Of a DNA stretch of 64,000 nt, positions 3-60,823 are shown piece after piece (the first letter of the stretch is position 1; every line of letters starts with the position of its first letter). A model generated the notes under the pieces. The model made no database searches, was not told the origin of the DNA, and saw only the letters and a list, made by a program, of their open reading frames with translations. The position numbers and the translations under genes are program-made. Source of the DNA: an uncultured Armatimonadota bacterium. GTDB taxonomy: Bacteria; Armatimonadota; Armatimonadia; Armatimonadales; Armatimonadaceae. The stretch spans positions 124,001 to 188,000 of the forward strand of contig CAIVZM010000018.1 in the NCBI GenBank assembly GCA_903910385.1, given 5' to 3'.

Positions 3-95
3 TCGGTAACAGGTAAAAGCGTGTTTGGATGGAATCCATTTAAACACATCCGAAAATTTACTCTCATGTTTTGTTGTAGTGTCAGCCTTTTATGA
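3..95 (+). CDS. C-terminal end of an upstream protein (partial)
   Basis: An open frame runs from the window edge to a TGA at 93-95 and reads through about 30 residues, including GKSVFGWNPFKHIRKF. Its stop overlaps the ATG of the next gene (ATGA), the same coupling seen between the next two genes, which is the main reason to believe it is coding. By position it should belong to the exopolysaccharide operon that follows. Too little is visible to assign a family. Confidence 0.45.
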   Translation, partial: SVTGKSVFGWNPFKHIRKFTLMFCCSVSLL

Positions 96-1273
96 ATACG
101 CTTCTACTCATTCCCAGCATCTTGAAAAAGGATGTGGACTCCCTTGTCGCAGCCGACCGGCATCCGACAATGGACTATTACGCCCTTGCTCAAAGACTCC
201 GACAAGAAACGCAACCTTGTCGAGTCGAGATACTGGATTATGCTGCAGTTGAAGCCAGCAGTGACCCACGAGTTCAACGCATGGCAAAATATGCAGGCAG
301 AGATTTTGCGCTGGCGATGATGGGATTCTTGCGTAGGAATGAATTCGACGCCATTTTCACCAATGGTGAGAATGTCAGCATTCCACTGGCGCTACTTTTG
401 AGAGGAGCGGGCGTTTCAGCGCCGGGTCGTCGTCCCGGCCATGTGACAATCGCGCACAAGCTTTCTACCGGGAAGAAACGACTGTTTTTTAAAGGGCTGG
501 GGTTGCATCGGGAAATAGACACGCTGTTTGTCTATGCCGCATCACAAAAAGCGTTTGGAGTGGAGCGCTTGGGAATCCCGGCGAAAAAATTACGACTGAT
601 TCCTTTTCATGCCGATTCCGACTTTTACCGTCCCCTGCCTGATGTCAAGGTCAATGAGAATCAAATCAGCGCTGCGGGACTGGAATGGCGCGACTACCCT
701 ACCTTGATTGCGGCAGTTAAAGATATGTCTGACCTGTTGACATTACTGGCGGCGGCTTCGCCCTGGTCGAAACATGCCAATGAGACGGCGAAGCGGGAAC
801 TTCCGCCAAATGTCAAAGCGCGTCGCTATGAGTACGGAGAGTTGCGCGATCTGTATGCATCGTCCGCCTTTGTGGTCGTTCCGCTCTATGAAAACGATTT
901 TCAGGCGGGAGTCACCACCCTATTAGAAGCGATGGCTATGGGTAAAGCGGTGATTGTCACCGAAACCACGGGTCAGCGCGATGTCGTCGTTCACGGCGAA
1001 AACGGACTTACCACGCCACCGGGTGATGTCCCTGCCTGGAAGGAAGCGATAGTGCGTCTCCGTAATGACGCCGTTCTACGAGAAAGATTGGGCCGTAACG
1101 CCCGTCGCTGGATCGAAGAAAGTGCGACGTTGACCCTCTGGGTCGACAATATTGTCAATGGCATACGGGATAGCGTTCCCCAAAGACCTGATAAAACACG
1201 TTATCCTGATCCACATATCGCCCTAGAAGCGGCGCAACGTACCGGAAAATCAACCCCGGAGGTTATTAAATGA
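92..1273 (+). CDS. Glycosyltransferase, GT4-like
   Basis: This 393-residue protein probably transfers a sugar from an activated donor to a lipid-linked or growing polysaccharide acceptor in the cytoplasm. The C-terminal half has the GT1/GT4 Rossmann pattern: a stretch YASSAFVVVPLYENDF, then TLLEAMAMGKAVIVTETTG and HGENGLTTPPGD, which correspond to the donor-binding E-x7-E region of the family. The N-terminal half is less conserved. There is no signal peptide. It is translationally coupled on both sides (ATGA overlaps), so it belongs to one transcription unit with the partial upstream gene and the EpsD-like isomerase. Neighbouring exosortase and EpsI genes suggest work in exopolysaccharide assembly; the exact sugar is unknown. 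Confidence 0.85.
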   Translation: MNTLLLIPSILKKDVDSLVAADRHPTMDYYALAQRLRQETQPCRVEILDYAAVEASSDPRVQRMAKYAGRDFALAMMGFLRRNEFDAIFTNGENVSIPLALLLRGAGVSAPGRRPGHVTIAHKLSTGKKRLFFKGLGLHREIDTLFVYAASQKAFGVERLGIPAKKLRLIPFHADSDFYRPLPDVKVNENQISAAGLEWRDYPTLIAAVKDMSDLLTLLAAASPWSKHANETAKRELPPNVKARRYEYGELRDLYASSAFVVVPLYENDFQAGVTTLLEAMAMGKAVIVTETTGQRDVVVHGENGLTTPPGDVPAWKEAIVRLRNDAVLRERLGRNARRWIEESATLTLWVDNIVNGIRDSVPQRPDKTRYPDPHIALEAAQRTGKSTPEVIK

Positions 1274-2256
1274 AACGAATTCTGCCAATATTACTGGCCC
1301 TTATTGCTGTCTCCTCACTCATCGCGAATGTCCTGCTCTACATGCGATACTCCACGACCCGTCCGCTCATGACGATGAACGACACGGTGATTACCAAAAA
1401 AGACTATCAGGACATGATGGACGCTCTCTACGGTCGGCAGACGCTCACAAAAATGGCTTATGCGAAAATTATTCATAACGCCGCTGTGAAAAATAATGTA
1501 ACGGTCAGTGATAGTGATGTCGATGCAAGGATCGCAGAAGTCCATCGTCGCAGTCCTGCCGTCGTTGAGGCGGCGCAACGTGATCCTCTCCGCGCTCAGC
1601 TTCTCAAGGATGAAGTTCGGACGACTCTGGAGTTGGAAAATATCCGGATAAAAGATATCAAGGTGACCGACGACGAGGCGTTAGCGTTCTTCCAGCAAAA
1701 CAAACAGGCATGGGTCTTGCCGTTACAGACGAAAACCACCATGGCTGTTGCAGAAAATGAGACGGATGCAAGCGCCGCGAAAGAAATGATGGCGAATAAA
1801 GTTGATCTGAATGTCATTAGTCAGTCGGCGCGCATACGTGTCGTCGGTATCAATGGATTCGCTCCAAACTGGAATGTCATGCCGCCGGCGGATCGTGGAC
1901 GACTGACTGCAGAAGTCAATCAAACACCAGTAGGGCAATCAAAGATCATTACGGTTCAATTGCCCAAAAAACGGGACGATGGATCGGTCATTATGGCGAA
2001 ATATTTCTTCGTGGTTCGGGTGGACACCCGTAGCGATGCAGGAGTGCCGCCTTATGAGACCATAAAAAATAGTGTCCTCCGTCTGGCGAAACTGGATCGA
2101 GCCAATAAGGAAAACAAGAAGGCGGAAGATATACTCGCGCAACTCTATCGGGAAGCGAATGTCGTCTTCGAAGTTCCCAAGTATGCCGCTTACTTTGAGG
2201 ATGTCAACCAGTACATGAAGAATATTGACGCCACAAAGGGTACGGAAGTAAAATAA
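1270..2256 (+). CDS. EpsD-like peptidyl-prolyl isomerase/chaperone (SurA/PpiC type)
   Basis: The 328-residue protein has an N-terminal membrane anchor or uncleaved signal (residues about 5-25), then a SurA-N-like helical region beginning NDTVITKKDYQDMMDAL, and a parvulin-like region around residues 150-270. This is the layout of PpiC/SurA chaperones and of the EpsD proteins found in exosortase/EPS loci. The parvulin part is poorly conserved, so the protein may be a chaperone rather than an active isomerase. It should act outside the cytoplasmic membrane, helping secreted or sorted proteins fold. Its ATG overlaps the stop of the glycosyltransferase. The exosortase starts 323 bp downstream after a large palindrome. 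Confidence 0.7.
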   Translation: MKRILPILLALIAVSSLIANVLLYMRYSTTRPLMTMNDTVITKKDYQDMMDALYGRQTLTKMAYAKIIHNAAVKNNVTVSDSDVDARIAEVHRRSPAVVEAAQRDPLRAQLLKDEVRTTLELENIRIKDIKVTDDEALAFFQQNKQAWVLPLQTKTTMAVAENETDASAAKEMMANKVDLNVISQSARIRVVGINGFAPNWNVMPPADRGRLTAEVNQTPVGQSKIITVQLPKKRDDGSVIMAKYFFVVRVDTRSDAGVPPYETIKNSVLRLAKLDRANKENKKAEDILAQLYREANVVFEVPKYAAYFEDVNQYMKNIDATKGTEVK

Positions 2257-2287
2257 AAGCGTCGCAAGCTGTATATTAAGCCCTGTA

Positions 2288-2329
2288 GCGCCGGCGATTA
2301 TCCGTAATATTACCGATTATCGCCGGTGC
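2288..2329. repeat. 42-bp near-perfect palindrome in the 323-bp gap before the exosortase
   Basis: Two 21-base arms (2288-2308 and 2309-2329) are reverse complements apart from one G-T wobble and two mismatches, with no loop; the centre is GTAATATTAC. As RNA it could be a factor-independent stop for the glycosyltransferase/EpsD unit, though no T-run follows. As DNA it could be an operator. The rest of the gap (2330-2579) is clearly more A+T-rich than the surroundings and holds no open frame I would call a gene. It must contain the exosortase promoter, but I could not pick a convincing -35/-10 pair. Confidence 0.6.
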
Positions 2330-2579
2330 AAGGAGGCTTTCCATACAGAATAACAAATTAATCGCTTTTACTGGTACAAATAACACAACGGGTTACGGAA
2401 CTTAAAATCATTAATCGTATATAACATTGCGAATAATAAGATTATTGATTGTGCAGATTCATCTTTTGCGTATCCACTATTGTCAATTATTTACGTCCGA
2501 AATCATAAAATCGAATTACCTTAATATCTACCGGAAATGTCTTAACGAAGAAAAATGACCTGACGGAGACCAAACGAAT

Positions 2580-3482
2580 ATGTCCACTCTTACAACCGCT
2601 AATACCGACGCTCAGGGAAATGCCGACGCGAAGCCACTGGTACTAGATATACCTTTAATAGCATTTGCCGTTATCGCTATCGGGTTGTTTATCGCTATCA
2701 GTTTTCGCCTGCTGGAATGGTGGTACTGGGAATGGACGAAGCCAGAATCGTTTTACGGTCATGCCTTTTTCGTCCCGGTTCTGGCAGGGGTTATGTTCTG
2801 GCATTTACGGGACAAGCTCGCCGCCGTGCCCAAAGAGCGTAGCTACAGCGCTTTATTGCTGTTCCTTCCCGCAGTAGCGATGCTGGTCGTGGCGAACCAC
2901 CGCGCATTGCTTTCGCTATCCTCGCCCCTGTTTATTTTCGCCCTGATTACGGGAGTAGCGTTTGTTGTCGGATGGAAATTTGTACGAGTCGCCGCTTTCC
3001 CTTTCCTGTTTCTGACGCTGATGCTTCCGCTACCCGGAACTTTGCTCAATGACCTGACGCTGGGAATCCAGGGAGCTTCCACCGCCGGCGCAACGAAGAT
3101 TCTCAATACGATCGGAATTCATTCCCTGCGTCAGGGCAATATTATCAGCATGGACAACTACGTGATGAACGTAGCGACCGCCTGCTCGGGATTCAACCTT
3201 TTATTGCGTCTGCTTACCTTCTCTGCTGCGTTCGCCTATCTGACGGATGGCCCCGCATTACGCCGCATCGGCCTATTTCTTTTCAGTCTGCCATTATCGG
3301 TGGCTATCAACGCAATCCGTATCGCGATGATTGGCGTTGTTGGTGAGTGCCTGGGTAGCACCGCCGCTTCCACCTTCCATGATTACAGCGGTCTTCTCTC
3401 GCTCGTTTTATGTATGTTTGTCCTGTTCAGCGTTGCGAAGTGGATGGGATGTCGTACTTTTGCAGGGCAGCCGATTTTTTAG
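2580..3482 (+). CDS. Exosortase (EpsH/Xrt family)
   Basis: This 300-residue polytopic membrane protein is a transpeptidase-like enzyme that cuts and re-anchors proteins bearing a PEP-CTERM tail. The three family catalytic positions are visible: Cys202 in VATACSGFN, Arg247 in INAIRIAM and His267 in STFHDYSG, each near a membrane segment. The N-terminal WEWTKPESFYGHAFFVPVL also matches the family's conserved early segment. The start has a GGAG ribosome site in GACGGAGACCAAACGAAT just upstream. EpsI follows after 36 bp, a classic pairing. A candidate substrate with a PEP-CTERM tail is encoded at 57187-58137. I cannot tell the subtype from sequence alone. Confidence 0.92.
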   Translation: MSTLTTANTDAQGNADAKPLVLDIPLIAFAVIAIGLFIAISFRLLEWWYWEWTKPESFYGHAFFVPVLAGVMFWHLRDKLAAVPKERSYSALLLFLPAVAMLVVANHRALLSLSSPLFIFALITGVAFVVGWKFVRVAAFPFLFLTLMLPLPGTLLNDLTLGIQGASTAGATKILNTIGIHSLRQGNIISMDNYVMNVATACSGFNLLLRLLTFSAAFAYLTDGPALRRIGLFLFSLPLSVAINAIRIAMIGVVGECLGSTAASTFHDYSGLLSLVLCMFVLFSVAKWMGCRTFAGQPIF

Positions 3483-3518
3483 CTCCTGAAAGAAATATCG
3501 CTCAGAAAGCATTCGACC

Positions 3519-4217
3519 ATGACTCAAAACATACGTACATCACTGATTGCTGTTAATATTCTGCTACTCGGAGCGCTGGGAGTCGCTCTGACCTGGCCGG
3601 AAGAAAAACGCGTTGAATTTTCCTACCCCGGCGAGCGGGTTCCCCGAAGCGTTGAAAATGCGGGCGTAGCCTACGAAGCGATCAGCGACTTGCCGGTGGA
3701 TAAAGATACCCGAACTCAACTTTCGGCGGCCAGTATTATTTCCCGTACCTACCGGGAAACCGGAAAAATGGTTGCATCTGATCCGATGCTTTTCACGCTC
3801 ATCGGTGGCAAAGATCGGACCGTTATCCATGACCCACGATCGTGCTTCCGCGGGGCGGGATGGCAAATCGATAACGATCGCAATGAAGTTTTGCCGGGAA
3901 CGAGCATCAATGTACATACCTGCGTCATACGCCAGCCACAAGAAAATATCGCCCACGATGTTATCTACCTTTACACTGTCGATGGGGCGATTCTTAACAG
4001 TGTGACGCAGATTCGTGGCGAAATGGTCTGGAACGCCTTTCTGGGTTCTTCCAATCGCCCCACGTTCTTCTTCCGTTGCTCCCGACTTGTCAACCCGGCA
4101 TCCATTAATAAAGACGGCGGCATCAGCGACGAAGAGCATAAAAAGCTTCAGGATTTTGCCGCAACAATGTGGAAAACGGTCGGACCAGATTTACTGAAGA
4201 TGCGTTCTGCGAATTAA
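3519..4217 (+). CDS. EpsI family protein (DUF3485), exosortase partner
   Basis: The 232-residue protein starts with a signal-anchor (LIAVNILLLGALGVALTWP) and has the DUF3485 hallmark HDPRSCFRGAGWQI near the middle, followed by an extracytoplasmic beta-rich domain. EpsI domains occur either fused to exosortases or, as here, encoded directly after them. Their biochemical role is unsettled, but they are needed for EPS production in studied systems. The gene is 36 bp downstream of the exosortase and is very probably cotranscribed with it. Confidence 0.85.
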   Translation: MTQNIRTSLIAVNILLLGALGVALTWPEEKRVEFSYPGERVPRSVENAGVAYEAISDLPVDKDTRTQLSAASIISRTYRETGKMVASDPMLFTLIGGKDRTVIHDPRSCFRGAGWQIDNDRNEVLPGTSINVHTCVIRQPQENIAHDVIYLYTVDGAILNSVTQIRGEMVWNAFLGSSNRPTFFFRCSRLVNPASINKDGGISDEEHKKLQDFAATMWKTVGPDLLKMRSAN

Positions 4218-4322: not shown

Positions 4323-4796
4323 ATGAAAATTGAAGGTATCATGTCCATACAGAGAACTCCCCTTCGCCTCGCCTCCGCTATTCTTCTTGTCCTTGGATTA
4401 TTTTCAGGACAGGCGATGGCGCAGACGAACGAATGGTCAAAGACAAATACATTTGGGGCGACAACGTCCGGGCGACTCGGCTTCTCTACTCTGGGGAATC
4501 CCTCTTCACGCTCGAAGACTTTTACGCCCCGATTAATACAGCCCCCCGCTACGCTTAAGAGCGCTAACAGAAATTCTTCCCAGCGGAACGCAAATACGTT
4601 CGCGCCGGATCGAGGAATTTTTCTCTCGGGCAACGCAGGGTCTTTGTCTAACAGCGGTAGTGGCAATCTTTTATCGCCTCTTGTAGTGGACAAAAAAATG
4701 GAATTGAGTTGGTCACGCCGCAGTAAGTCTTCGGCGGATGCAGACAAGACCAACAAAAAATCGTCAACCCCGCGTCGCCGTCTGTCCGAACCGTAA
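4323..4796 (+). CDS. Small secreted protein of unknown function in the exosortase locus
   Basis: The product is 157 residues with a clear signal peptide ending in FSGQAMAQ. The mature part is Ser/Asn/Arg-rich, low in complexity and without cysteines; the tail SSTPRRRLSEP is strongly basic. No PEP-CTERM motif is visible. An in-frame ATG at 4341 has a better-placed GAAGG in front and leaves the signal peptide intact, so it may be the true start. A TATGAT box lies at 4290-4295. I do not recognise the family. The position suggests an export- or matrix-related role, but that is only inference. Confidence 0.6.
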   Translation: MKIEGIMSIQRTPLRLASAILLVLGLFSGQAMAQTNEWSKTNTFGATTSGRLGFSTLGNPSSRSKTFTPRLIQPPATLKSANRNSSQRNANTFAPDRGIFLSGNAGSLSNSGSGNLLSPLVVDKKMELSWSRRSKSSADADKTNKKSSTPRRRLSEP

Positions 4797-6430: not shown

Positions 6431-8152
6431 TTACTTTGGCGCGCCGTCTTCGCGCACGGTCAATGGCTTGTTCGCCGGGACATTTTTCAGAGCGGAGGAG
6501 ACGCCATTGGGCCAGTGGACAGTCACCGTATCGGCGACAGTGGCGCTACCCAGACCGAAGTGAACGCGGGAGTCAGAGGAGGACATATACGAACCGCACG
6601 GCGAACACTGGCGTAGCATTTTCTGACCGCCCACGGTGACTTCCACTCGCGCCCCGTAACCATTACGGTTCGCCTTGCTTCCCACAAGCCGGATAGCCAG
6701 AGCGTTTCCTGCGTTCACGGTCTCGTTGTGTAACAGGAGAGGCGTCCCTTCGCTATCGACTATCAGAACATCGATCTTGCCATCGTTATCGTAGTCACCC
6801 GTCGCTAAACCACGACCGACAATCGGGCGGCGCGATCCTTCATCCAGCGACGATGCGCTGATATCTTCGAATCGTTCGCCCTTATGATTCTGAAATAGTT
6901 GCACCGATTGTTTGTACGTAGTCGTCTTGTCGATGTCCGATATATTGTCCTGAACATGCCCGTTCGCGAGGATCAGATCCAGGTAGCCATCGTTATTAAA
7001 GTCCAACCATTTGATCCCAAATGTCAGCGAGGGGGTCGCGGGAGCCATTCCCAGCATCGCCGATTTATCGGTAAAGAGATCATCGCCATCGTTATGATAG
7101 ATGTTTTTGGGCTCATTCTGGAATGTGGCTACCACGAGGTCGATTCGCCCATCGTTGTCGTAATCTCCCCAATCGACGCCCATACCGCCATGGACGCCGC
7201 CATTCTCATCGTAGGCGGTGCCGGAGTTTTTCCCGATGTTCTCAAACTTTCCGCCCCGGTTCGCCAGAAGATCACCCGGCATTTCATCGTTCGCCAGCGC
7301 CAGACTGATTTTTCCAGCGCCGTCGTAGTCGGCGGTGGCGACACCCAGCGTTTTGCCTTCGACAAGATGGGCATTCCAGCTCTGGGTGATATCCTTGAAC
7401 TTTCCGTTAGGGCCGCCCAGATAGAGATGGCTGGTTTCCGGTTGATAGAACCGGGGACCGCAGGATGTCTTGTGTCCATTATTGGTACAGAGTTGTGGGT
7501 CTGTATCCGGTCCGAATTTGACATAGCCCCCGATAAACAGATCGAGATAACCGTCGCCATTGATATCGGTAAACGCGGCGGAACACGACCAGGGTTGCGC
7601 CGGAATGCCAGCCGCGACGCTGACATCCTCATACCCTTGCCCTTTACGATTATGGAGCAACGCTCCGCCTCGGTAGGCAGTCAGGTAGATGTCATCGTAC
7701 CCATCGTTATCGTAGTCGCCCACTGTGCATCCCAGAAAATAGCCTTTCAGAGTAGCCAAGTTGGTTTCCGCCGTGACATCTTTGAAATGCCCTGCGCCAT
7801 CTCCCTGGAACAGGGCGACACTGGAACCGACCAGCAAAATGTCAAGCTTACCATCATTATTATAATCCAGAAAAGCGCAGCCGTTCCCAATCGTCCCCAG
7901 GATATTCAGCGGTCGCGTTCCCTTTGGACGCCATTCATAATTCAGACCGGACGCCTTCGCCACCTCTCGGAAAACCGGTCCGGCGGCGTCTCCGTTAGCC
8001 AGGGCGCCGGGGCTGGCGTTTTGCGATTTGGACGACGATCCTACTCCCGGCGAGTCCCCATTCCCACCTGTCGTCCCGCTCTTTGGACTGCATCCTGTCG
8101 CTATAGTGAGCGCAGTAGCACATATAAAAATCAAGATAGTGCGAAAACTCAT
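6431..8152 (-). CDS. CRTAC1-type lipoprotein (FG-GAP repeats plus UnbV/ASPIC domain)
   Basis: The 573-residue protein is exported and probably lipid-anchored: signal MSFRTILIFICATALTIATGC ends in a lipobox Cys. At least seven FG-GAP/VCBS blades follow, each with a calcium-binding loop such as DYNNDGKLDILLVG or DYDNDGYDDIYLTA. The ASPIC/UnbV domain closes the protein (CSPCGSYMSSSDSRVHFGLG and VTVHWPNG). The frame extends 41 codons further upstream, but the ATG at 8152 has a strong GAGGTGA eight bases before it and begins the signal peptide. Such proteins are predicted cell-surface beta-propellers for binding or adhesion; the exact partner is unknown. Two more UnbV proteins are encoded in this window. 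Confidence 0.88.
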   Translation of the reverse strand: MSFRTILIFICATALTIATGCSPKSGTTGGNGDSPGVGSSSKSQNASPGALANGDAAGPVFREVAKASGLNYEWRPKGTRPLNILGTIGNGCAFLDYNNDGKLDILLVGSSVALFQGDGAGHFKDVTAETNLATLKGYFLGCTVGDYDNDGYDDIYLTAYRGGALLHNRKGQGYEDVSVAAGIPAQPWSCSAAFTDINGDGYLDLFIGGYVKFGPDTDPQLCTNNGHKTSCGPRFYQPETSHLYLGGPNGKFKDITQSWNAHLVEGKTLGVATADYDGAGKISLALANDEMPGDLLANRGGKFENIGKNSGTAYDENGGVHGGMGVDWGDYDNDGRIDLVVATFQNEPKNIYHNDGDDLFTDKSAMLGMAPATPSLTFGIKWLDFNNDGYLDLILANGHVQDNISDIDKTTTYKQSVQLFQNHKGERFEDISASSLDEGSRRPIVGRGLATGDYDNDGKIDVLIVDSEGTPLLLHNETVNAGNALAIRLVGSKANRNGYGARVEVTVGGQKMLRQCSPCGSYMSSSDSRVHFGLGSATVADTVTVHWPNGVSSALKNVPANKPLTVREDGAPK

Positions 8153-8498
8153 TCTGTCACCTCGTTGTTTTCCCGTCCTGTCGTCGCGTCGGTTCATTCC
8201 GGCGCTCAGACCCGTGGAATCGCGCTCCCGAGAAGGCGTTCCTGCGCCGACAGATTCTTTTGGCGGTAGCGTCATTGAGGAATCCTGCGTTGAACACTCC
8301 CATTATGATAGCCAAAACTATCAATACGCTTCCTACTATCGCGGAATTTTAGTTCATATCGCTCCTATTTACGCATGTTGAGGGCTAAATAGTTGCGGCT
8401 CACGCCCACTGGCAGGAATCGTCAGCAGGAAACCACCAGGAGACGACTTCGTTTCCTGGCAGGGATTCATCAGGGAGCGTTTCCTGAAGTCTGCTTTC
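8153..8498. other. 346-bp intergenic region between serC and the CRTAC1 gene
   Basis: No gene is seen. It holds the ribosome site of the CRTAC1 gene (GAGGTGA), an inverted repeat TGATAG-N6-CTATCA at 8306-8323 that could be an operator, and a CCAGGA-N12-TCCTGG hairpin at 8436-8459 that sits 40-60 bp after the serC stop and may mark its 3' end. I could not identify a convincing promoter. Confidence 0.4.
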
Positions 8499-56999: not shown

Positions 57000-57186
57000 C
57001 CATAACACTTTTTATTAGGTGTAAAAGAGCATGATATATTCCCCCTGCCGGTCGTTATCATAACGCTTCCGTCTCCTCCCCCGACCTCAGTAAAGAGTAT
57101 TCGTTTTGTAATGTGGTATTCTGGGTAGACTGAAGTAAAAATGATGTAACCAAGCCTCTCCTGTGGAATCAACAGAAAGAGTCAGG

Positions 57187-58137
57187 ATGATGGGGCGTTC
57201 CGGCAACCGCTACAGGGGATTTATCTCTGGTTTGTGGTTAGCGCTATTTTTAACATTGTGGAGCGGCGTTGCCAGAGCGCAATGCTACAGCGCGCTCGAA
57301 ATCGTGTCATCGCCTGAAATGGAGAAACTCACTTCTCCGCTTGCAGAAGCGATGACAGATGATTTCCCTCATCTCCCGAATGGCCCGTCACCATACTCTC
57401 TGACATCACTGGGCGGGTCTCGCACCCTTGTTCTCTATACCGATTCCAATAGACAATCCGTTGGAGCGTCCTATCTTGCTGGCGACAAACAGTTTCATGC
57501 CATCTTTTTGAATACACATGGTTTGTATAATCTGGGGACTCTCGGCGGGGATTACAGTATCGCACGGTTCATCAATTCTTCAGGGACTATCGTCGGCGAA
57601 TCCACTACTTCTGGAAATAAAGAATTACACGCTTTCCTATATCGTAACGGTCAAATGTATGACCTCAATCGTTTTGTCAAAACTCGGGGATGGATCATTG
57701 AGGAAGTCGTTGGGTTGGAGGATGATGAGCGTATCACCGTCTTTGGCAGGTACGGCGGAATCCGCCGCGCCGCCATTTTACAGCCAATAGAACAACCTGT
57801 AACGCATATGTCGCCCCAGGCAGGGATTCTGGGAGCGTTAGCGCTGGGAGCAGGGGCAGCTTTTTTAACCAAGGAAACTTACCTGAATCCGATTGGACTT
57901 TCCTTCAATACGAGGCAAATTCCGTCGATTAACCCCTCGCTGAGTTCCGATGGCGACAGTCTATCGACTACGCTACCGAAACACTTTCCTCCTCTCCTCC
58001 TGCCGGGTGAACGCAATCCGCAACTGGCTACCGTTCCAGAACCGGGAATCCTGGTGTTTACCGGAGTTTTTGTCGGGGCGCTACTCTTACCCGGTATTTA
58101 TCGTCAAGTCTACGGTTTGCGACGCCCGATGGACTGA
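57187..58137 (+). CDS. PEP-CTERM sorted protein with HAF repeats
   Basis: A 316-residue exported protein and the likely exosortase substrate. It has a signal peptide (LWLALFLTLWSGVARAQ), HAF-type extracellular repeats (LGTLGGDYSIARFINSSG; HAFLYRNGQMYDLN) and a full PEP-CTERM tail: VPEPG, about 18 hydrophobic residues, then YRQVYGLRR. A membrane-like Gly/Ala stretch AGILGALALGAGAAFLTK sits at about residue 215. ATG 57187 is preferred to the GTG at 57163. It is 53 kb from the exosortase, as is usual for these scattered substrates. Confidence 0.82.
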   Translation: MMGRSGNRYRGFISGLWLALFLTLWSGVARAQCYSALEIVSSPEMEKLTSPLAEAMTDDFPHLPNGPSPYSLTSLGGSRTLVLYTDSNRQSVGASYLAGDKQFHAIFLNTHGLYNLGTLGGDYSIARFINSSGTIVGESTTSGNKELHAFLYRNGQMYDLNRFVKTRGWIIEEVVGLEDDERITVFGRYGGIRRAAILQPIEQPVTHMSPQAGILGALALGAGAAFLTKETYLNPIGLSFNTRQIPSINPSLSSDGDSLSTTLPKHFPPLLLPGERNPQLATVPEPGILVFTGVFVGALLLPGIYRQVYGLRRPMD

Positions 58138-58173: not shown

Positions 58174-59106
58174 TTACTCTTGAGGCATCTTAAGAGGAGG
58201 CAAGTGCGCTTCCAGTTCGCTACGGAACTTTTCATACTGTTCTGGAAGTTTCAAACCTTCACCCAGTTTCTCCGCCGGTTCGTCCGCCGCAAAGCCTGGC
58301 GGGTCTGTGGCAAGTTCGAATAAGATGCCGCCCGGTTCGCGGTAATAGATGGAATGGAAGTAAAAGCGATCCATCACCGGCGAGACATGAAAGCCTTGCG
58401 TCTGCAACTTCGCCAGCCATTCCTCCTGCGCTGCATCATTGGGAACACGAAACGCCACGTGGTGGACAGTCCCGACGCCATTTAACCCTCGCGCCCGCGG
58501 ATTCGCCGCCAATTCTTCCGGTAAATCAATGACCGCCACACGGGCGAAAGACGCTCCCGGCTTCGCTTCAAAGACCTGTCCATTTTCGTTTTGCGGCGTA
58601 AATCCCATTATTTCCGTGAGAAGATGAATTGTCAGCTTGACATCGCGCACCGTCAAAACGACGCCGGTGATACCACGAATAGCGAATTCGGGGGGAACCG
58701 TTCCGCTCCCGGAGCCATCGCCCGGATACTCGCCCTCTTCCAGCGTCAGGCGCAACCCGTCTGGATCCGCCAGTCGCAGGGCATCCGCTCCCGCTTCGGT
58801 GAACTCGATGCCTCGGACAGCGAGTCGCTCTCGCCAGTAGTCAAGAGAACCCTTTGGAACCCCCAATGCCGTTTCCGTCACCTGTCCGATGCCGACGCGC
58901 CCCGGACTGCCCGGCCCATAAGGGAAGAAGGTGAGAATCGTCCCGGGACGCCCCAATCCATCGCCGTAATACAGGTGGTAGGTTCCAGGGTCATCGAAAT
59001 TGACGGTCTTTTTGACCAATCGCAGTCCAAGGACTCCTGCATAGAAATTCAGATTTAACTGTGGATCGCTGGCAATTGCAGTGACATGATGTATTCCGGT
59101 AATCAC
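58174..59106 (-). CDS. Ring-cleaving dioxygenase, VOC family (MhqO/MhqA-like)
   Basis: The 310-residue protein has two glyoxalase/VOC modules: ITGIHHVTAIASDPQLNLNF with LRLVKKTVNFDDPGTYHLYY, and later GITGVVLTVRDVKLTIHLLT with VGTVHHVAFRVPNDAAQEEW. His and Glu metal ligands are visible (HHVT, YHLYYG, VHHVAF, FYFHSIYYREPGGILFELAT). These Fe-dependent enzymes cleave hydroquinones and are induced by quinone stress in Bacillus. Start is GTG with AAGGAA twelve bases upstream. Confidence 0.88.
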   Translation of the reverse strand: MITGIHHVTAIASDPQLNLNFYAGVLGLRLVKKTVNFDDPGTYHLYYGDGLGRPGTILTFFPYGPGSPGRVGIGQVTETALGVPKGSLDYWRERLAVRGIEFTEAGADALRLADPDGLRLTLEEGEYPGDGSGSGTVPPEFAIRGITGVVLTVRDVKLTIHLLTEIMGFTPQNENGQVFEAKPGASFARVAVIDLPEELAANPRARGLNGVGTVHHVAFRVPNDAAQEEWLAKLQTQGFHVSPVMDRFYFHSIYYREPGGILFELATDPPGFAADEPAEKLGEGLKLPEQYEKFRSELEAHLPPLKMPQE

Positions 59107-59174
59107 GGGCGAAATTCCTTCCAGTTGGAAATATCTTCCACAGTCTATATGCCCGGAACCCTGAGGAAGTTCCC

Positions 59175-59264
59175 GTCAGGTTTCGACTGTCAGGTTTCGA
59201 CTGTCAGGTTTCGACTGTCAGGTTTCGACTGTCAGGTTTCGACTGTCAGGTTTCGACTGTCAGG
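59175..59264. repeat. 14-bp tandem repeat spanning the cobA-hemD stop codon
   Basis: Six identical copies of GTCAGGTTTCGACT run from 59175 to 59258, followed by a partial seventh. On the minus strand the seventh/sixth copies encode the last residues of the fusion protein (LTVET) and the TGA; the remaining copies are in the 139-bp gap before the dioxygenase gene. Confidence 0.97.
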
Positions 59265-60823
59265 GTTGCGATCAGTCCTTCGATCGTGTAATCGCTGGCG
59301 ATCCGATCCGGTTCGCGGAGCGACTCCCGGCAGGTCTGAGCCGTGACCGGTCCGATACAGACCAGTAAGACCGATGCAGGAATAGATATGTTACCGCCCA
59401 ATGCCTCCGCAAAATTCTTTACGGTCGATGATGAGGTAAACGTGATCATGTCTATTTCACCTCGTTCCAGACGCTCGCGGATATCGTCCGCACCTTCATC
59501 CGCCCGTTCCGTTTTATAGGCGGCCACTACATCTACCGTCGCGCCCGCCGCCCGCCAGGTTTCCGGCAGAACATCACGCGCCTCCAGCGCTCGTGGAATC
59601 AGAATCGCTTTACCGCTCAGGTTCTTTTCAGGGAATTGTGCGGCTACCGCTTCCGCGACAAATTCCGTCGGAACGAAATCCGCGATAATTCCTCGCTCGC
59701 GTAATGCGGCGGCGGTAGCCGGGCCAATAGCAGCGACCTGAACGCGACCAAACGCGCGTGCGTCCCCTCCTCGTGCCGCCAGTCGGTCGAAGACATATTT
59801 CACGCCGTTAGCGCTGGTAAAGACCACCCAATCGTAATGGGATATACCCCCATCGTTGTTGAAAAGCGCCCTATCCAGCTCTTTATAGTCACCTTCCGAC
59901 ATTGGCATGATGCGAATCGTAGGAAATTCGATTGGTTCAGCGCCGAGTCGCAACAGTTTGTCACTAAGTTCGGACGCCTGCTCTCTCGCCCGAGTTACCA
60001 CAATGCGCTTACCGAACAGCGGCCCAACATCGAACCAGCGTAATGCTTCCCGGTAATTGACCACATCACCAATGACGGTAACGGCGGGGGCGGTAATCCC
60101 TTCTGCTTTCGCCACATCAACAATGGTAGCGAGCGTACCTGTAGCCACTTTCTGACGTGTCCATGTACCCCACTGAACCAGTGCAACAGGCGTATCGGCA
60201 TCGCGTCCGTTCTCGATCAACCGGGCGGAGATTTCCGGCAGGTTTTCCACCCCCATCAGAAAGATCAGGGTATCCGCCGCCCAGGCGATCCTGTCCCAGC
60301 GACGGCGCTGTTCCGCTGCGCCAGCGTCCCTTGTCCCGCTTTCCTTTGCATCATCCCGTTCATGCCCGGTAATAACGGCGAAGCTAGAAGAAGCGTCCCG
60401 ATGGGTCACCGGGATTCCGGCGTAGGCGGGAGCGGCGATAGCGGAAGAAATGCCGGGAATAATAACGAACGGAATGCCGCGTTCCCGCAGGTACTCCGCC
60501 TCCTCGGCGCCGCGCCCGAAGACGAAAGGATCGCCGCCTTTGAGGCGCACCACCTGTTTTCCGGCGAGCGCCGCCTCCGCGATCAGGGAGTTGGTATCTT
60601 CCTGTTTGACATAATGGGTCGCGGACTTCTTACCGACGAAGACCCTCTCTGCACCGAGACGGCAATAGTTCAAAAGTGAGGGATGCGACAGACGGTCGTA
60701 GTACACAACGTCCGCACCAGCCAGCGCATCTCGCGCTGCTATGGTTATCAACCCCGGATCGCCCGGCCCTGCCCCTGCCAGAAAGACGGTTCCGATTTTC
60801 GCCTGATTCTCTGCTCTGTTCAC
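59246..60823 (-). CDS. Fused uroporphyrinogen-III C-methyltransferase / uroporphyrinogen-III synthase
   Basis: The 525-residue bifunctional enzyme makes uroporphyrinogen III and methylates it to precorrin-2. The N-terminal CobA/SUMT part (residues about 8-255) has VFLAGAGPGDPGLITIAA, VVRLKGGDPFVFGRGAEEAE and PAYAGIPVTHRDASSSFAVI. The C-terminal HemD part (about 265-525) has KRIVVTRAREQASELSDKLL, DWVVFTSANGVKYVFDRL and GRVQVAAIGPATAAALRERG. Such fusions are common in Firmicutes and related groups. Translation starts at a GTG six bases after a TACAAT box. The stop lies in the 14-bp tandem repeat. Confidence 0.95.
   Translation of the reverse strand: MNRAENQAKIGTVFLAGAGPGDPGLITIAARDALAGADVVYYDRLSHPSLLNYCRLGAERVFVGKKSATHYVKQEDTNSLIAEAALAGKQVVRLKGGDPFVFGRGAEEAEYLRERGIPFVIIPGISSAIAAPAYAGIPVTHRDASSSFAVITGHERDDAKESGTRDAGAAEQRRRWDRIAWAADTLIFLMGVENLPEISARLIENGRDADTPVALVQWGTWTRQKVATGTLATIVDVAKAEGITAPAVTVIGDVVNYREALRWFDVGPLFGKRIVVTRAREQASELSDKLLRLGAEPIEFPTIRIMPMSEGDYKELDRALFNNDGGISHYDWVVFTSANGVKYVFDRLAARGGDARAFGRVQVAAIGPATAAALRERGIIADFVPTEFVAEAVAAQFPEKNLSGKAILIPRALEARDVLPETWRAAGATVDVVAAYKTERADEGADDIRERLERGEIDMITFTSSSTVKNFAEALGGNISIPASVLLVCIGPVTAQTCRESLREPDRIASDYTIEGLIATLTVET

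Follow-up and report, generated by a model that had tools for sequence, protein, structure and literature searches.

An exosortase and EpsI pair at an EPS locus of an uncultured Armatimonadota bacterium and its probable link to one of two PEP-CTERM tail classes

Genomes with several exosortases (XrtA to XrtD) encode more than one such enzyme, each with its own tail variant, and the choice of enzyme has mostly been inferred from co-occurrence. The genome analyzed here resembles them in holding several enzymes and variant tails, but PEP is retained in both of its tail classes, whose main differences lie in the helix and the basic part. The window, a stretch of 64,000 nucleotides from this genome, carries an exosortase gene at an EPS locus. 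Haft et al. (2006, PMC1569441) reported an EPS-linked EpsH/PEP-CTERM system, and the conserved EpsH motifs given there are CxG, NxxR and HxxxG. The genome agrees with this system in its EPS setting, in an EpsH that matches the three motifs (CSG at residues 202-204, NAIR at 244-247 and HDYSG at 267-271), in the EpsI that adjoins or is fused to it, and in scattered secreted substrates with PEP-helix-basic tails. It departs from the system in that no named Xrt subtype model reached its cut-off, two triad enzymes stand beside two tail spellings, and the 34 tail genes, searched with one narrow pattern, had no RpoN-like site upstream (0/18 for class I and 0/16 for class II).

The sequence-only reading had asked whether the exosortase falls in a subtype known to recognize a different tail. 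Seventeen named exosortase/archaeosortase subtype models of NCBIfam were listed for the enzyme, and none was over its cut-off. The top-scoring subtypes were XrtD/VPLPA-CTERM (TIGR04152; 158.4 bits, cut-off 400), whose model of 486 positions also matches EpsI, and exosortase W (NF038142; 125.1 bits, cut-off 425), while the XrtA model gave 123.8 bits (cut-off 208). The window differs from the first two systems not only in the unreached cut-offs, but also in having PEP instead of VPLPA tails and an exosortase encoded separately from EpsI. In NCBIfam terms, it is a generic exosortase.

Among the papers searched, none joined Armatimonadota with exosortase, and the one that paired Armatimonadetes with PEP-CTERM is on LuxI/LuxR. 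Nothing was found on two exosortases with PEP-CTERM, nor on an exosortase with a pseudoenzyme, although this is no proof of absence elsewhere. Among the 201 genomes sampled from the phylum, EpsH was found at E <= 1e-5 in 161 and a TIGR02595 match over the cut-off in 166. At least three TIGR02595 matches (E <= 0.2) occurred in 136 of the 161 EpsH-positive genomes versus 7 of the 40 without EpsH. This link of EpsH to tails is known biology, and it indicates, together with the EpsH count, that exosortase systems are widespread in the phylum and not rare. The system described below is ordinary in kind, but its pairing of two enzymes with two tails is cleaner than expected, and its third module is odd.

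Table 1. Positions of the features discussed, in the window unless another contig is named.
Feature	Position	Strand	Basis
Family 4-like glycosyltransferase of EPS locus	92-1273	+	PF13692 62.3 bits; homologues at related loci
EpsD-like SurA_N/peptidyl-prolyl isomerase-like secreted protein	1270-2256	+	SurA_N_3 E 2.8e-5, below Pfam cut-off
Gap upstream of exosortase, 323 bp	2257-2579	+	ORF list: no PEP-CTERM gene
Exosortase, type A	2580-3482	+	PF09721, TIGR02602, Cys-Arg-His triad, tree
EpsI (DUF3485) partner	3519-4217	+	PF11984 over, TIGR02914 below cut-off
Secreted HAF-repeat protein	57163-58137	+	TIGR02913 45.6 bits, cut-off 22.65; GTG start
PEP-hydrophobic-basic tail of the HAF protein	58033-58134	+	unlike either class of tail in the genome
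Type C tandem module [exosortase-fold protein, EpsI-like, lipoprotein] x2	G000 contig 23, L043 7504-12568	-	

In the profile search, the exosortase scored 168.5 bits against PF09721 (cut-off 25.7) and 124.4 bits against TIGR02602 (cut-off 105.55), which places it in the exosortase family. The EpsI gene lies directly after it, as the sequence-only reading had stated, with 40.4 bits against PF11984 (cut-off 26.1) and 31.4 bits against TIGR02914 (cut-off 42.8). The same reading had named Cys202, Arg247 and His267 as the triad and an apparent armatimonad as the host. The coordinates were correct, the triad is intact, and these three residues, together with Ser203, Gly204, Asn244 and Gly271, were invariant in 8/8 aligned proteins; all seven named relatives of the exosortase were Armatimonadota or Armatimonadetes MAGs, in agreement with the proposed phylum. 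A contig scan with the exosortase as a single-protein query found no relative. The predicted structure was mostly helical with a mean pLDDT of 75.8; no solved relative was found by sequence, and a fold search with this model gave 0/199 matches at E <= 0.001, so that the prediction lends no structural support to the geometry of the triad and is uninformative on mechanism. The exosortase and EpsI are a real membrane enzyme pair, whose probable role is to trim surface proteins and release them by means of a C-terminal tag.

The 20 kb upstream of the exosortase is a large polysaccharide cluster, in whose ORFs an export protein, a chain-length protein, a kinase, a flippase, a polymerase-like protein and several glycosyltransferases were named by inspection alone. 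The EpsD-like isomerase and the glycosyltransferase previously placed ahead of the exosortase are both there, and several related exosortase loci encode homologues of each: 53-54% identical in L255, L118 and L120 for the glycosyltransferase, and about 29-35% at L109, L118, L120, L230, L234, L235 and L255 for the EpsD-like protein (L234 is the same sequence as L255). A PEP-CTERM gene stands immediately 5' of the type A-like exosortase at 9 of 13 related loci, the window being one of the 13, and is absent in the window. Within the family, the tail gene was directly upstream of type A in five of the six loci where that place is visible (L107, L109, L118, L120 and L089), each time coding for a secreted product whose tail reads (I/V)PEPxEW; the type A locus of G124 starts at a contig end, which leaves its upstream gene out of view. 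In the sister family, a PEP-CTERM gene was at the same place in four of seven loci (L231, L232, L233 and L249) and absent from L230, L234 and L235. The tail gene lies between epsD and the exosortase only in L109, L232 and L233, while epsD is further away in L118 and L120 and was not found in L107. After EpsI there is a 157-aa secreted ORF (4323-4796, + strand) that had no Pfam or NCBIfam match and, among the compared loci of relatives, no tblastn homologue at E <= 1e-3. An FG-GAP/ASPIC-UnbV repeat protein with a lipoprotein-like N-terminus (6431-8275, - strand; PF13517 132.9 and PF07593 76.4 bits) is also encoded near the EPS locus.

The tails of the genome fell into two classes. TIGR02595 gave 17 matches over the cut-off, 13 of which have APEP, and these belong in the main to class I, a set of 18 mostly APEP tails ending in LRRRR or similar. 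Class II consists of 16 tails of the form (V/I)PEPGxxAFGxLAAGSxLGLIARKRK on scattered proteins, including NHL-propeller, PA14 and beta-helix proteins. These have the tripartite PEP, hydrophobic helix and basic end, and 14 of the 16 have an N-terminal hydrophobic segment; the exceptions are a 75-aa ORF near a contig end and one protein with a possibly misplaced start. Used at its cut-off, the standard PEP-CTERM model finds none of the 16 class II tails in this genome: TIGR02595 lists four of them (contigs 82, 27, 16 and 74), all below the cut-off. PF07589 gave 13.3-19.3 bits (cut-off 20.7) for six of eight scanned class II proteins and did not list the other two. The sequence-only reading had proposed a count of PEP-CTERM tails in the full genome, and the result, 17 matches over the cut-off plus 16 class II tails, shows many further ones.

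Class II in the window's genome was revealed by the A1 model, which was built from the tails of five relatives and none from the window's genome; four of the five came from proteins on type A exosortase contigs. The A3 model was trained on 14 tails of the window's genome and 4 of relatives, so that its 16 matches in this genome are partly by construction. For clustering, 30 + 19 matches were reduced by three duplicates and by seven whose final 45 residues held neither PEP nor PES, and the tail of the HAF-repeat protein was added to the remaining 39. The 40 tails separated into 18 and 22, with the silhouette best at k = 2 (k of 2-6 tried) at a value of just 0.31; the cluster of 22 held the 16 class II tails, the HAF tail and five odd tails. 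In the scoring of 18 tails of class I and 16 of class II, class II tails left out one at a time reached 48.7-67.9 bits on the class II model, on which the 18 class I tails reached at most 11.3 bits. The class I model was looser and overlapping, with 13.1-37.6 bits for class I and 1.4-17.6 bits for class II tails.

EpsH and EpsI each gave four matches over the cut-off in the genome, arranged as the window pair (type A), a 630-aa exosortase-EpsI fusion on contig 28 with the sequence ADPCSGLHSL (type B) and two tandem units on contig 23 (type C); types A and B keep the full triad. In a tree of 82 proteins, where Cys-less rows were long-branched, types A, B and C formed separate clades with support of 100/98, 100/100 and 100/100. 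Close type A orthologues were present in 7 and type B in 11 of the 12 genomes of the family, and second, lower-scoring type A-like copies were found in G118, G041 and G129.

Both type C exosortases of the window's genome are without the catalytic Cys and His, and retain the family score, EpsI and lipoprotein. Relatives of the module were found at L102, L105, L106, L110-L113, L117 and L121. In G086, G139 and G144, CSG, NxxR and His are still present in the first copy, which is Cys-less in G013, G071, G062, G100 and G124; 6/6 readable second copies were Cys-less, with an uncertain alignment of the weakest rows. The lipoprotein family occurs in 11 of the 12 family genomes and, at E <= 1e-6, in 63 of the 201, with weaker matches outside the family. 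We tentatively consider that the cell may have three exosortase lines, A with class II, B with class I, and a type C that is Cys/His-less here and in five related genomes. In this rather speculative scheme, the type C proteins could be conserved non-proteolytic exosortases that hold, hand over or gate substrates.

The co-occurrence of enzyme and tail was followed in the 201 genomes with E <= 1e-7 for class II tails and more than 470 bits for a close type A orthologue. Class II tails occurred in nine genomes, comprising all seven with a close type A and 2 of the 194 others (Fisher 1.5e-11). Inside the family, the Fisher value was 0.010 when genomes were counted and 0.029 when genera were, the genus count setting G144 aside, as its genus is counted with G112; the lineages are not independent. 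No class II tail was found in the four members of the family that lack type A (G013, G071, G106 and G139), and matches to the A1 model in the first three of these were weak (best E 0.002). The two others with class II were G144 and G067. In G144, which is 85% complete and shares its genus with a genome that has type A, class II matches occurred without a close type A; neither type A nor type B was found there, yet it had 16 TIGR02595 matches. G067, outside the family, had a single class II-like tail (contig 104, 25617-25697, 3.5e-10), and its exosortase falls in a clade neighbouring type A with support of 80/39. The seven sister-family genomes had type A-like enzymes (best 242-370 bits) and no class II tail at E <= 1e-7. 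Tails next to the sister-family exosortases had a related but different spelling, such as PEP...GGLGLMGLAFRARK; this is consistent with co-change and also weakens a one-to-one rule.

Our preferred reading, to which we give a probability of about 0.65, is that the type A enzyme of the window serves the class II tails and the contig 28 type B fusion serves class I, two lines working in parallel. Proteins would be exported from the cytoplasm through Sec and would be held in the inner membrane by the C-terminal PEP-helix-basic tail. The exosortase would then cut beside PEP with Cys202, assisted by Arg247 and His267, and the cut protein may be freed or transferred to the outer surface or the EPS matrix. 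The type A enzyme in the EPS cluster would read the class II tails of the 16 scattered proteins, and type B the class I tails. The likely substrates of the window enzyme are the class II proteins encoded outside the window. The family match and the triad, the polysaccharide cluster upstream, the two tail classes, the discovery of class II through relatives' tails, the tail gene adjoining type A in relatives, the co-occurrence and the separate clades, all read from sequence, point to this pairing. PEP is common to both tails, which leaves the AFGxLAAGSxLGLI helix and the terminal RKRK as the candidates for specificity. With two triad enzymes, two separable PEP tails and relatives lacking one of each, a direct test of specificity is possible.

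Several observations weigh against the pairing. A single gain or loss could explain the tracking of class II with type A, which is not phylogenetically independent. G144 and G067 carry class II without a close type A, the sister family has the reverse, and 3/7 sister loci lack an adjoining tail gene, as the window does. If the two active exosortases were redundant on one PEP-CTERM pool, the tail spellings would be paralogue families unlinked to enzyme choice. This is compatible with the intact triad of both enzymes, the PEP, helix and basic end common to both classes, and the class I model, which overlaps class II and does not separate the classes cleanly; it is also compatible with the presence of type B in 11/12 family genomes, which is too wide for absence to bear on its link to class I. 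However, the two classes are sharply set apart on the class II model, within the family class II goes with type A, and similar tails adjoin type A, so we regard redundancy as rather unlikely. It is highly improbable that the window enzyme was dedicated to one once-adjoining PEP-CTERM protein and is a leftover in this genome: such a gene is missing here and adjoins at 9/13 loci, but both EpsI and the triad are intact, and the genome carries 16 tails of class II.

The HAF-repeat protein of the window had been proposed as the substrate, and this is doubtful in our view, though it would be compatible with the pairing of type A and class II. The secreted protein and its VPEPG tail proposed by the sequence-only reading are real, but the gene starts at a GTG at 57163, and the previous start at 57187 is an internal ATG. 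Its signal-peptide-like N-terminus, PEP, hydrophobic run of 18 residues and basic end (VPEPG...YRQVYGLRRPMD) would suit a substrate, its tail clusters loosely with the class II half, and when the tail was shuffled 2000 times, no shuffle reached its class II score and 22 reached its class I score. On the other hand, the tail scored 10.7 bits on the class II model, which is inside the class I range and far from the weakest true class II tail, and 4.2 bits on class I (member medians of 57.0 and 26.1 bits, respectively), and its basic end is spread out. It was not listed by TIGR02595 (cut-off 16 bits) in a whole-genome search at E <= 10 and was absent from the genome's 22 A1-model matches (E <= 1) and 16 A3-model matches.

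The HAF proteins of the family were also compared; 30 loci were found, of which 21 were read and the other nine, judged by place, were further repeats of genes already listed. Two reads in a wrong or short frame were removed and L280 and L288 were one protein, leaving 18. PEP tails were seen in two, the window's protein and one of G013 with APEP, which favours the proposal; three had a hydrophobic-basic end without PEP, and 13 had neither, so the HAF repeat was rejected as a sorting marker. Two other HAF places exist in the genome, where the C29 protein was read and had no tail and C57 was seen as a match alone. With its tail an outlier to both classes, we would not name the HAF protein as the substrate, and of the sorting system with a substrate in the window, the exosortase-EpsI unit is the part that stands. 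Near the HAF gene, the ORF at 59086-59346 encodes a tandemly repeated peptide, SGFDCQVSTVRFRL, which indicates a short DNA repeat upstream of the gene at 58174-59106.
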